Source: Bacteroidales bacterium (GTDB lineage: Bacteria; Bacteroidota; Bacteroidia; Bacteroidales; UBA6680). Taken from it: a stretch of 64,000 nucleotides of DNA. The stretch spans positions 1-64,000 of the forward strand of contig JAOARD010000064.1 in the NCBI GenBank assembly GCA_025210735.1, given 5' to 3'. This document shows, piece after piece, positions 7,629-53,875 of this stretch. Made by a program: the position numbers and the translations under genes. Below the pieces are notes generated by a model, which did not search any database, was not told where the DNA came from, and worked only from the letters and a program-made list of their open reading frames with translations. Position 1 is the first letter of the stretch; every line of letters starts with the position of its first letter.

Positions 7629-8309
7629 ATGACTAAAATTATATTACCATCAGTATATAAGGAGTTTTACAGTAGATGTTTAGTGTCGAAACCAGAAAGT
7701 ATGATAGGCTCTGATCTTAGAACAGATTCAGATCAGTTAAATGATTGGGCTGTTGAACTGCTTGAGGAGATTGATGTAAAAAACTTTCTTGCAGATAATG
7801 ACTACGTATTTATGATGCATCAGGGATATATGTTCTGGTACTTTAAAGCCGATGGTAATCCAAACCCCGATGTATATTTTTATCATGAAGGAAGGTCAGA
7901 ACCAGAGAAGGAGTATCCGCTGGTAGAGTTTCTTTATAATTATCCGAATAGATTAAGCAATGAGACAAATAAGAAAAAGGAATGGGATAAAAAGGTTGAG
8001 TTTTACAAAGACTTGATAGATAATTATAATTGGCAACAGGCTCCTATGCTCAGTTTAATTGATAAATTTAAAGAAATCGGTTTCTGGGATAAATACTTTC
8101 CTTCTAATTCACATGAAGCTTTGGGACTAAGTACTGTTTATGATGATGTAAGATTTGAAAAATCTACGGTTTTTATACTGTACCGACCAAATGATGATAC
8201 ATTTGAGGTAACTTATTTGAACCCTGCAAGAGATGTTATTAAAATTGAAACCCATCAAAATAATATTGGTACAGCAGAGTTTAAAAAGATTGAGAATTGG
8301 ATTGACTAA
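7629..8309 (+). CDS. SMI1/KNR4 (SUKH) family immunity-like protein
   Basis: 226 residues. The N-terminal LPSVYKEFYSRCLVSKP region and the central MMHQGYMFWYFKADGNPNPDV motif followed by VEFLYNYPNRL are typical of SUKH-superfamily proteins, which neutralise polymorphic toxins by direct binding. First gene of a run of immunity-like genes (7629-14137) all on the plus strand with small gaps. No cognate toxin is visible in the window, so it may be an orphan defence gene against neighbours' effectors. Subfamily not settled. Confidence 0.7.
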   Translation: MTKIILPSVYKEFYSRCLVSKPESMIGSDLRTDSDQLNDWAVELLEEIDVKNFLADNDYVFMMHQGYMFWYFKADGNPNPDVYFYHEGRSEPEKEYPLVEFLYNYPNRLSNETNKKKEWDKKVEFYKDLIDNYNWQQAPMLSLIDKFKEIGFWDKYFPSNSHEALGLSTVYDDVRFEKSTVFILYRPNDDTFEVTYLNPARDVIKIETHQNNIGTAEFKKIENWID

Positions 8310-8397
8310 ACTAATCATCATTAAGAAATTTCTGGTATACTAGATAAATTTATGATATGAATTCTACTTATGTAAGTGGAAAACAAATTACAAACAG

Positions 8398-8826
8398 ATG
8401 CAGGAGAATAACTATACAAAACCAGTAAAAGATAGGTTTGAATATGATAGTAACGAACAGCATTGGATAGACTTTCCGTTTATTATATCAGCATCTGATT
8501 TTAAGACAATTGATTGGGATATATTTGAGAAACCGTATAATGATACTGTGAATAGCAGGCATGTGATAGAGGAGGAATCGGTTAAAGCAATATTAAATTA
8601 TGTTAAGGAGATTGGTTTCTTTAATAAAGAGGAATTTGATGATTTAGAATTTGGGATATTTGATATACAGCTAATATTAAAAGATTATCAGGTAGTTGAA
8701 TGTGTAACAAGTTATTTTGTTGATGAAGATGAGAATTCGAAGATATACTGGAAAGATATTTACGGAGTATGGAAAGCATATTATAAGAGTGGAGTAATTT
8801 ATAAAGTTGAAAGAGCTTATTATTAG
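8398..8826 (+). CDS. Unknown acidic protein in immunity island
   Basis: 142 residues, acidic and aromatic-rich (QHWIDFPFIISASDF near residue 21, IYWKDIYGVWKAYY near the end), single domain, no signal peptide or membrane segment. I do not recognise the family. Size, composition and position between a SUKH gene and an endonuclease V-like remnant suggest a further immunity protein. Starts at an ATG preceded by AAACAG, the same bases that precede several starts in this island. Confidence 0.6.
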   Translation: MQENNYTKPVKDRFEYDSNEQHWIDFPFIISASDFKTIDWDIFEKPYNDTVNSRHVIEEESVKAILNYVKEIGFFNKEEFDDLEFGIFDIQLILKDYQVVECVTSYFVDEDENSKIYWKDIYGVWKAYYKSGVIYKVERAYY

Positions 8827-8836
8827 AAGTGAAGAT

Positions 8837-9356
8837 ATGATTTTAGCATTTGATACATACTATTATAAGGATAAAGCAAAAACTGTTTGCGTTGAGTTTT
8901 CTGATTGGATAAATGATAAACCTGATAATATATATTCGGAGATAACAGAAGGAATCTCTGAATACGAACCCGGATCATTTTATAAGAGAGAACTTCCGTG
9001 TATACTAAGCCTTCTGAACAAGAAAGATTTAAGCAATGTGGATCTTATAATAGTTGATGGTTTTGTAATACTTGATGATTCCGGTAAACCAGGACTAGGT
9101 GGTCATTTAATATGATGCTCTTAATAAAAAGATTCCGGTTATTGGAGTTGCAAAGTCAAAATTCCATAGCAACCACAACAATGTAAAAGAGCTGTTAAGA
9201 GGAGAGAGTATAAAACCTCTGTATATTTCGGCAATAGGGTTAGAGTTAGAATCAGCCTTTAATCATATAAAGAATATGCATGGCAACTATAGAATGCCAA
9301 CCCTGCTGCAGATACTTGATACAGAGACAAAGAATATACCGGAAGAAGATAAATGA
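8837..9356 (+). pseudogene. Endonuclease V-like gene broken by a one-base frameshift
   Basis: From ATG 8837 the frame reads MILAFDTYYY (catalytic-type Asp), GSFYKRELPCIL (catalytic-type Glu), IIVDGFVILDDSGKPGLGGHL, all hallmarks of endonuclease V, then stops at 9115. In the next frame from 9111 the protein continues without a gap: YDALNKKIPVIGVAKSKFH and on to a stop at 9354-9356. Removing one A near 9110 restores a single frame of about 172 residues with HLYDAL across the join. Endonuclease V cleaves next to deaminated bases (inosine). The whole second half lacks stops, so the break is recent, a sequencing slip, or a slippage site. An earlier in-frame ATG at 8807 overlaps the preceding gene and is less likely. 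Confidence 0.75.
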
Positions 9357-9364
9357 TTAGATAA

Positions 9365-10497: not shown

Positions 10498-10530
10498 TCA
10501 TTTTGGCAAATGAAGAACAATTATAAGCGG
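10498..10530 (+). repeat. Truncated copy of the micro-ORF repeat
   Basis: The bases from about 10498 to 10530 (CATTTTGGCAAATGAAGAAC... then TTATAAGCGG) match the 3' end of the micro-ORF units at 53644-53822, including the L-A-N-E..Q-L-stop reading and the spacer before the next ATG. The 5' part is missing, replaced by the end of the upstream gene. Confidence 0.65.
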
Positions 10531-10617
10531 ATGAAACGAAGCATGAGAAATAATTTTCACACACACGAGAATGATTATTATGCAGAGTTCCATTTGACCA
10601 TTAAAAAGAAAAAATAA
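10531..10617 (+). CDS. Micro-ORF of the MKRSMR family (28 aa)
   Basis: 28 codons from ATG 10531 to TAA 10615-10617, reading MKRSMRNNFHTHENDYYAEF and then HLTIKKKK. It differs from the micro-ORF at 53553-53639 (43 kb away, other strand) by one amino acid and two silent changes. The ATG of the next gene (cREC protein) follows five bases after the stop, with the same ACAG spacer as in the other locus. The peptide is strongly basic, with a conserved HTH..D and EFHL core, no signal sequence and no membrane segment. No family known to me. Translation is inferred from codon-frame conservation only. Confidence 0.55.
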   Translation: MKRSMRNNFHTHENDYYAEFHLTIKKKK

Positions 10618-10621
10618 ACAG

Positions 10622-10963
10622 ATGAAAAAACTTTTTCTGGATGATGTAAGAACCATAGATATGGTCTACGATAAATCAATGGAATCGGAGTTTGATATAG
10701 TAAGAACATATAAGGATTTTGTTGACTATATAAGACGAAACGGATTGCCACACTTTATAAGCTTTGATAATGACTTGGGGCTGGATGAGAATGGGGAAGT
10801 AGCACCCGATGGATATGCCGCTGCAAAATGGTTAGTCTATGATTCAGGGTTAGATTTGATTAATCTGAAATTTAATGTACACTCTGCAAACCCTGTTGCA
10901 GCAAAACAGATAGAGGGACTGTTAAACAACTATATTAAACACCTTAAGCAGCTTTTACCTTAG
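10622..10963 (+). CDS. cREC (cyclic-phosphate-type receiver-like) domain protein
   Basis: 113 residues. LFLDDVR at the start, ISFDNDLGLDE near residue 47, DGYAAAKWLVYD near 60 and a late VHSANPVAAKQIEGLLNNY motif match the stand-alone receiver-like cREC family, in which the HS.NP motif is typical. Such domains are found next to phage-defence and immunity genes and are thought to bind or process cyclic phosphates; the exact reaction is unproven. Its ATG lies within the last bases of the micro-ORF repeat, so its translation initiation region is supplied by the repeat. Confidence 0.8.
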   Translation: MKKLFLDDVRTIDMVYDKSMESEFDIVRTYKDFVDYIRRNGLPHFISFDNDLGLDENGEVAPDGYAAAKWLVYDSGLDLINLKFNVHSANPVAAKQIEGLLNNYIKHLKQLLP

Positions 10964-52933: not shown

Positions 52934-53548
52934 TTATCGTTTTCTCCAGAACAGTGCAACCCTTATTGCAATTATAATACCAATAACAATTTTTAGATAT
53001 ATATACGGTAGTGCTATAGCAGTAATAATAAATACTCCGGCTATTGTATACAGAATTCTGTTATCATTGTCATCCTCTTTTGTGGTATCAGGGAACTCTA
53101 TTTTTTTAAGTAATCTGTTGTCTACATCAAGCAGAAATACACCATCGCAATCAAATGCCTGAGAATATTCCAGTATCTGTCGGCGTGTTGATGAGTTAGT
53201 AATCTGCGGTGCTGATTTTCCGGTTTTGGCCTCAACAACATACTGTTTACCATCTTTTTTTGCAATAAAATCGGCTATAATAGATATCTTAATATCCTTT
53301 CCGTTCTCTTTTATATAGTATTCGCGTTCGCTCTGCTCTTCAACTATTTTGAAACCATTCTTTTTAAGAAAAACGGCTGCTTTTTTCTCTCCTTCAATTC
53401 CTCTGTTAAGCCTCTGCTGTTTTTTGTATTGTCTGTTCCACTCTTTAAACTTTAGCCTTAGTATCGCAAATAGCAAAAGAACAACAACAATAGCAATTAT
53501 TATAAGTTCAATATTAGATACCGAAGCACTTTCAAGTAGTTGTTTCAT
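52934..53548 (-). CDS. Membrane-anchored NERD/PD-(D/E)XK nuclease-like protein
   Basis: 204 residues. One N-terminal membrane helix (13-29) and two at the C-terminus (about 165-200). The middle domain shows a NERD/restriction-endonuclease pattern: G.EGEKKAAVFLKKNGF (Glu), IADFIAKKDGKQYVVEAKTG (Asp and E-x-K) and TRRQILEYSQAF. Active-site residues look intact. Could cleave DNA at the membrane or be a repair/defence factor. Its ATG (53548) is the last part of the micro-ORF repeat, five bases after the micro-ORF stop. Confidence 0.75.
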   Translation of the reverse strand: MKQLLESASVSNIELIIIAIVVVLLLFAILRLKFKEWNRQYKKQQRLNRGIEGEKKAAVFLKKNGFKIVEEQSEREYYIKENGKDIKISIIADFIAKKDGKQYVVEAKTGKSAPQITNSSTRRQILEYSQAFDCDGVFLLDVDNRLLKKIEFPDTTKEDDNDNRILYTIAGVFIITAIALPYIYLKIVIGIIIAIRVALFWRKR

Positions 53549-53552
53549 CTGT

Positions 53553-53639
53553 TTATTTTTTCTTTTTAATGGTCAGATGGAACTCCGCATAATAATCATT
53601 CTCGTGTGTGTGAAAATTCTTTCTCATGCTTCGTTTCAT
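53553..53639 (-). CDS. Micro-ORF 1 of the tandem array (28 aa)
   Basis: 28 codons, ATG 53639 to TAA 53553-53555. Begins MKRSMRKNFHTHENDYYAEF and ends HLTIKKKK. Nearly identical to the micro-ORF at 10531. The NERD-like gene's ATG follows after the ACAG spacer. Basic, soluble, no known domain. Confidence 0.55.
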   Translation of the reverse strand: MKRSMRKNFHTHENDYYAEFHLTIKKKK

Positions 53640-53643
53640 CTGT

Positions 53644-53730
53644 TTATAATTGTTTTTCTTTTGCCAGATGGAACTCGCATTTATTATCATCTCCGTGTGT
53701 GTGAATGACTATTCTCATGCTTCGTTTCAT
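53644..53730 (-). CDS. Micro-ORF 2 of the tandem array (28 aa)
   Basis: 28 codons, ATG 53730 to TAA 53644-53646. Begins MKRSMRIVIHTHGDDNKCEF and ends HLAKEKQL. Keeps the MKRSMR, HTH.(D/N)D and CEFHL blocks but changes the residues between, compared with micro-ORF 1. Micro-ORF 1 starts five bases after its stop. Confidence 0.55.
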   Translation of the reverse strand: MKRSMRIVIHTHGDDNKCEFHLAKEKQL

Positions 53731-53822
53731 CAGTTTATAATTGTTTTTTCATTTGCCAGATGGAACTCGCATTTATAATCATCTCCGTGTGTGTGAATGA
53801 CCATTCTCATGCTTCGTTTCAT
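53730..53822 (-). CDS. Micro-ORF 3 of the tandem array (30 aa)
   Basis: 30 codons, ATG 53822 to TGA 53730-53732. Begins MKRSMRMVIHTHGDDYKCEF. A one-base insertion near its end shifts the frame so that it ends in TIIN and overlaps the next ATG (TGATG). First of the array after the Lnb gene. Confidence 0.5.
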   Translation of the reverse strand: MKRSMRMVIHTHGDDYKCEFHLANEKTIIN

Positions 53823-53875
53823 CTTTTTATTGTTGTTTTCTAAATTTGTCAGATGGAAAGATTAATATCTGATTA

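Follow-up and report, generated by a model that had tools for sequence, protein, structure and literature searches.

The window analyzed here is a 64-kb stretch of a Bacteroidales genome. At two loci on opposite strands it carries copies of a ~91-bp unit that run up to the start codon of a gene, together with remnants of older copies. The relevant features are the following.

8301–8397, + strand: probable old, degenerate copy that runs up to ATG 8398, the start of the ORF 8398–8826 (weak match, 27.5 bits, E 0.0035)
10499–10530, + strand: 3′ remnant of an older copy (CATTTTGGCAAATGAAGAACAATTATAAGCGG), matching in sequence the tail of other units
10531–10621, + strand: full 91-bp element copy (ATGAAACGAAGC...ATAAACAG), adjoining the cREC ATG (nhmmer/cmsearch, 110.7 bits, E 4e-19)
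10587–10596, + strand: internal guide GTTCCATTTG, complementary to the 3′ junction with one T.G wobble and one conserved A.C mismatch (covariation over copies)
10619–10626, + strand: 3′ junction in the sequence, CAG of the element end followed by ATGAA of the start codon and target
10622–10963, + strand: cREC host gene (profile match to PF20274, E 1e-23), its start codon abutted by the element
52934–53548, − strand: host gene of the second locus, its start occupied in the window and empty in UBA6680 (filled/empty comparison)
53549–53639, − strand: second locus, copy 3, adjoining the ATG of 52934–53548 (116.6 bits)
53640–53730, − strand: second locus, copy 2 (sequence match)
53731–53822, − strand: second locus, copy 1 (110.3 bits)
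53823–53859, − strand: second locus, remnant of an older copy in the sequence (TTTCCATCTGACAAATTTAGAAAACAACAATAAAAAG)

The original prediction described 10498–10621 as a full unit plus a truncated copy, the unit ending with ACAG at the downstream ATG, and this is what the region contains: the unit at 10531–10621 terminates in ...TAA-ACAG, the cREC gene begins with its ATG (10622) at the very next base, and the truncated copy is the remnant at 10499–10530. The open reading frame noted earlier opens within this remnant (ATG 10510), outside the full unit. The near identity reported for the two loci was confirmed: 10531–10621 and 53549–53639, the last unit of the 53.5-kb array, differ by exactly three substitutions, AAG>AAT (K>N) and the silent changes GCG>GCA and CTG>TTG. 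To judge from its weak match, 8301–8397 is probably a third, degenerate copy in the window. An endonuclease-V-like gene recognized by eye at 8835–9357 (+ strand) is seemingly frame-broken near 9110, with VDGFVILDDSGKPGLGGHLI in one frame and KIPVIGVAKSKFHSN in another.

A dispersed repeat with fixed ends

The "micro-ORF" of the window is a member of a ~91-bp dispersed repeat present in roughly 200 copies in this Bacteroidales genome (5.63 Mb, 76 contigs). The 35-residue translation of the unit matches more than 150 places, and a search for the 17 leading bases of the unit that allowed two mismatches gave 181 occurrences, compared with 5 for a reversed control pattern; these counts put the repeat far beyond chance. 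The motif formed by the guide and tail (see below) occurs 170 times, compared with 0 for its control. In ~0.8 Mb of sequence around copies, drawn from this genome and from twelve loci of a second genome (G002), nhmmer delimited 233 sharply bounded copies, which form 178 arrays with one to four members each; the genome copy number is based on the motif counts together with the loci around copies. Copies have fixed ends, running from ATGAAAC to AACAG or ACAT. High-copy, intergenic, palindromic, and non-coding, the repeat has the traits of REP-type sequences. A search of Rfam 15 with the element returned no family at or above the gathering score.

Seven contigs of G002 (C28, C85, C94, C113, C186, C187, and C189; loci L217 and L218) terminate in head-to-head palindromic element copies with the same end, which are probably assembly artifacts due to the repeat, and many further contig ends also fall within element copies. 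At a separate locus (L028, 1472–2667), three copies lie ~550 bp apart, each followed by AGGTTAAAGCCC/AGGTTAAGGCTC in place of ATGA, as if a longer segment had been duplicated together with the element.

A covariance model built from 60 copies and run over 149 genomes sampled from the order detected the family in 48 of them, with at least 27 matches in several. This wide spread is visible only with the covariance model, a protein-level search of 38 other genomes of the order having given no match. From 14 other genera we read 55 copies, 53 of them with a readable junction. A related 2.9-Mb genome (G042, probably G001) carries a version of its own that is 111 bp long and again lies directly before ATGAAA; in the related species' version the center is 20 nt longer and contains other residues and some stops. 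Copies also lie directly before phage gene starts in two phage contigs (L122, 8771–8859; L318, which has Mu-like genes, 766–867), and a prophage-like sequence (L022) carries one as well. Given its presence in two phage contigs, phages may ferry the element between hosts. No match was obtained by blastn of plasmid and phage records, exact-motif scans of viral contigs yielded one contig for each of two motifs, and no relative of an element-bearing phage gene with an empty site was found.

Placement at start codons and movement

Of 119 arrays whose 3′ end is intact and followed by an ATG, 100 (84%) have an ORF of 60 codons or more beginning there, compared with 174 gene starts among 586 element-free non-coding ATGAA sites (30%; binomial p = 1e-34). 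A second sample, chosen by DNA motif rather than by frame, gave about 33 of 40, and the copies from other genera 42 of 55. Host genes whose N termini could be recognized by inspection include lysS, clpB, lpxB, dapF, hisH, argG, purH, the gene for UDP-glucose dehydrogenase, and many encoding signal peptides; no common theme was visible among the N termini inspected. The remaining arrays, which have no gene start, also sit at ATGA(A) with the same junction, and ATGA is therefore a target even without a gene. A few right-hand sites read ATGAG, ATGAT, or ATGAC where the left-hand site is ATGAA.

Placement could in principle be the work of selection alone, with insertion at any ATGA and loss of all copies except those at start codons. 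The copies at ATGAA sites that start no gene agree with this, and insertions within coding sequence would be lost. However, the youngest quartile of copies is already at gene starts in 34 of 43 cases (79%), compared with the 30% expected from non-coding ATGAA sites, and we regard selection alone as a rather doubtful account. ATGA by itself does not account for the bias toward gene starts.

The claim that the repeat has moved or been copied was borne out by several lines of evidence. In UBA6680 (L114, apparently identical with genome G002/G041), the site before gene 52934–53548 is empty and reads ...CATACC followed directly by ATGAAACAACTCCTC; in the window, three units are present, followed by ATGAAACAACTACTT. 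Four further filled/empty pairs (L038/L177, L024/L171, L019/L163, and L077/L175) have flanks that can be aligned up to the ATG; other, older sites are shared. A sister species thus contains clean empty sites in which the same ATG stands, and the repeat is not fixed at both window loci, the 53.5-kb site being empty in UBA6680. We conclude that the repeat has moved, because near-identical copies precede unrelated genes and because empty sites in a sister species, phage copies, tandem arrays, and a nested insertion were found. In the nested insertion one subfamily lies inside another, and the ATGA-type element has host GAGA(A) kept on its left and ATAA(A) on its right; this appears to be a single ancestral event. 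The compound element is present at several loci (L055, L058, L032, and L111), as if it had spread as one unit.

The further proposal, that the repeat supplies a translation start to whatever lies downstream, was not supported. Since the empty sites already carry the ATG, the element enters at a start codon that was there before it and can replace no more than the leader ahead of it. Searches of the openly readable full-text literature yielded no account of a bacterial repeat tied to start codons.

The internal guide and its covarying junction

Positions 57–66 of the unit, GTTCCATNNN, are complementary to the unit's own 3′ junction, N′N′N′ followed by ATGAA, and, if the NNN is left aside, also to ATGAAAC, with which the unit begins. 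Guide and junction covary in seven NNN combinations: this genome has CTG/CAG and ATG/CAT, G042 and G062 have ACG/CGT, other genera have GTG/CAC and CCG/CGG, and TTG/CAA and AAG/CTT are rare. Perfect guide/junction complements number 125, compared with 75 expected if the two were independent; in other genera, 45 of 53 readable junctions pair perfectly, with five pair types. The guide/junction helix was the only one predicted by unconstrained RNAalifold, and it is paired in 94%, versus 88% in shuffled and 27–54% in slid controls. Double-change cells in the helix numbered 28 versus 11.5 in shuffles; as copies are related, these cells are not independent events, and the stronger argument is therefore the number of pair types and their recurrence across genera. 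The left stem is compensated as well (GCCA/TGGC, GCAT/ATGC, CCAC/GTGG, and CCCA/TGGG), and its position 4 is invariably an A.C mismatch. Folding energies of single-unit DNA hairpins were unexceptional (z −1.5 to +0.6), and the structural claim hence rests on covariation and not on energy.

Perfect pairing declines with the age of copies, from 47 of 51 in the youngest quartile to 25 of 53 in the oldest (p = 9e-6 for halves). This loss suggests that pairing serves movement rather than host regulation, so that it would be required for the element to move. Chimeric copies with mismatched guide and junction (CTG/CAT, ATG/CAG) likewise sit at start codons. The base just ahead of the target tends to vary with the guide (with CTG guides, 19 G and 22 T; with ATG guides, 1 G and 14 T; p = 0.01, for 56 sites possibly contaminated by old remnants), as expected if the guide reads the target. 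The element thus apparently picks its sites by base-pairing, via a short built-in guide.

Nearest-copy differences are spread evenly over the three codon positions (46/53/59) and include 8 stops versus 6 expected; recent substitutions comprise 37 synonymous (34 expected) and 121 non-synonymous (124 expected) changes. The core is out of frame in 73 of 183 cases (40%). Because of the lack of a substitution signature and the frequency of out-of-frame cores, the unit is not coding. Neither the frame conservation nor the synonymous excess of a protein gene was found, and the coding micro-ORF put forward in the original prediction was rejected. The repeat is a mobile non-coding element, not a gene.

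These data also bear on the idea that the repeat is a cis-acting translational regulator, a mobile leader in which a translated micro-ORF opens a guide/AUG hairpin that hides the host start codon. Such a role would suit the placement exactly before start codons, the covering of the AUG by the guide/junction helix, and a micro-ORF that stops 4 nt before the host ATG or overlaps it. It is at odds with the absence of coding selection and the out-of-frame cores, with a pairing that decays with age instead of being maintained by the host, with mismatched chimeras at start codons, with host genes sharing no visible theme, and with the lack of an Rfam match; we consider it improbable, and an effect on expression of the host gene is possible as a side effect.

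Slightly less probable still is mobilization by a DDE transposase as a miniature inverted-repeat element, for which ATGAA would be a 5-bp target-site duplication. The repeat is indeed small, dispersed, and without a gene of its own, and ATGAA is found at both ends of the insert. There are, however, no terminal inverted repeats: the inverted repeat has one arm at the 5′ end and the other inside the element, and the 3′ tail does not pair with the 5′ end. The few sites with ATGAG, ATGAT, or ATGAC on the right and ATGAA on the left, and the dissimilar flanks of the nested insertion, are also unlike a true duplication. A duplicated micro-gene for a leader peptide or a small antitoxin/toxin-like peptide, suggested by the ORF of ~28–35 codons in the best copies, can practically be discounted, given the flat codon-position and substitution tests, stops at the neutral rate, frequent frameshifts, and the longer center of the related species' version, with its other residues and stops.

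Proposed mechanism and relation to known systems

The sequence data point to a REP-like and IS200/IS605-like single-strand mini-element, non-autonomous and moved by an enzyme acting in trans, whose guide likely directs insertion at ATGA start codons. As in IS200/IS605 single-strand transposition, the guide would determine where the element is cleaved and where it inserts. The substrate would be a folded single strand, or a circle joining the 3′ end to the 5′ end, which is cut beside the ATGA that pairs with the guide and is then inserted at a different ATGA; the joint of such a circle would read ...AACAG followed by ATGAAACG, which is the joint found in tandem arrays. Of the two flanking tetranucleotides, the host would contribute the left and the element the right. 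The flanks of the nested copy (GAGA left, ATAA right) fit this geometry of one host and one element flank, and look like one event. Insertion beside the element's own ATGAAAC would produce tandem arrays. Because an A-rich leader and ATGA form the end of the element, a start codon and a Bacteroidota-like initiation region stay with the host gene, and insertion is for this reason probably nearly harmless.

The enzyme supplied in trans would most likely be a Y1 HUH protein. Of the 149 sampled genomes, 42 of the 48 that carry the element encode Y1_Tnp proteins versus 61 of 101 without it (p = 6e-4), as do 13 of 13 genomes with strong element matches; no Y1_Tnp was among the matches listed for six genomes with weak, degenerate element matches. 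This correlation may reflect merely genome size or general mobile-DNA load. A linked RAYT-like transposase, which the original prediction had envisaged, did not materialize, the Y1 genes of the genome being unlinked to the element and associated with other palindromes. In the Y1 loci examined (G000–G002 and nine other genomes), no Y1 gene was flanked by the element, and the one clear copy near a Y1 gene lies ~1 kb off, at the start of another gene. Searching for an autonomous long copy, with the ends placed around a gene, at 30 loci of the same genome with an unmatched left or right end gave only ordinary or degenerate copies. Neither a linked nor an autonomous mobilizer was thus found in the loci examined. 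The RAYT-like Y1 protein encoded in the genome has 181 aa and the motifs SHVH, WQ, and YVHNNP; a second candidate Y1 protein of the genus, of IS200 type, has 151 aa. Genes for such 181-aa proteins (G000:C1, L159 and L161; G002:C30, L157) have GC-rich palindromes on either side (CTCGCTGGTTCGAGCTTGTAGCTCGG / GAGCTATCAGCTCGAACCAGC), which apparently constitute a separate REP family.

With REP/RAYT systems the element shares its character of small imperfect palindromes, non-autonomous, intergenic, and in high copy, with a short guide-like motif, as well as a genome encoding a Y1 protein of subclass-2.6 size and motif. It differs from them in its greater length (91–111 bp), its head-to-tail arrays, its exact placement at start codons, and the covariation between its 10-nt guide and its junction. 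The GT[AG]G foot tetranucleotide of REP is absent from the element consensus, and a cognate tnpA-REP gene flanked by repeat copies was not found in the same Y1 loci; the subclass-2.6-like genes here carry the different, GC-rich palindrome and not the element. TnpA-Y1 subclass 2.6 (RAYT group 5) of Bacteroidetes is described as flanked by "atypical secondary structures" without GTAG (PMC6006769), and these structures are the nearest printed hint of the repeat.

In IS200/IS605 elements, internal guides select the cleavage and target site, the 4–5-nt target is kept on one side, and no ordinary duplication arises; guide-selected cleavage is also the model proposed for REP (PMC6006769, PMC8266576). 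Our element would resemble IS608, ISDra2, and their mini-derivatives in inserting next to a target and in having an internal guide that pairs with the cleavage or target site. It has no internal transposase, a single guide serves both ends, pairing extends over ~8–10 nt instead of 4, and the target is ATGA at start codons. ATGA flanks it on both sides, compared with the insertion of IS200/IS605 3′ of a short target without duplication.

Rickettsia palindromic elements insert in frame and spare gene function (PMC10969869). They resemble the element as small palindromic mobile DNA tolerated by host genes; unlike it, they lie inside ORFs and add a peptide, whereas the element stands immediately ahead of the ORF and contributes no peptide. 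BOX, RUP, SPRITE, and Correia-type repeats are similarly dispersed, intergenic, and non-coding, and are usually elements with terminal inverted repeats moved by DDE enzymes; we know of none that is fixed to start codons or has a guide covarying with its target. Integron attC sites were rejected, as the core boxes RYYYAAC...GTTRRRY do not fit ends that read ATGAAAC...GTTCCAT.

The element thus behaves like a REP or an IS200-type mini-element, yet falls outside the definition of REP (no GTAG foot, no flanked RAYT) and that of miniature elements with terminal inverted repeats. On balance we favor, with some reserve, a class of mini-elements spanning Bacteroidales and their phages, whose guide is tuned to ATGA starts. 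Start codons would serve as safe harbors: the start is re-formed and the element brings its own leader, so that hundreds of copies could accumulate even before essential genes, and changes in guide and terminus would create subfamilies with new targets. Mobile DNA must land without killing its host, and this element lands on start codons and leaves them in place. Its readable target guide, coevolving with the terminus, is a natural record of retargeting (seven pair types), and through it site-finding in single-strand transposition becomes testable. For annotation, the lesson is that such genomes contain "micro-ORFs" by the hundred that are transposon DNA, and that the repeats break assemblies. 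For the hosts, foreign leaders have been placed ahead of hundreds of genes at once.
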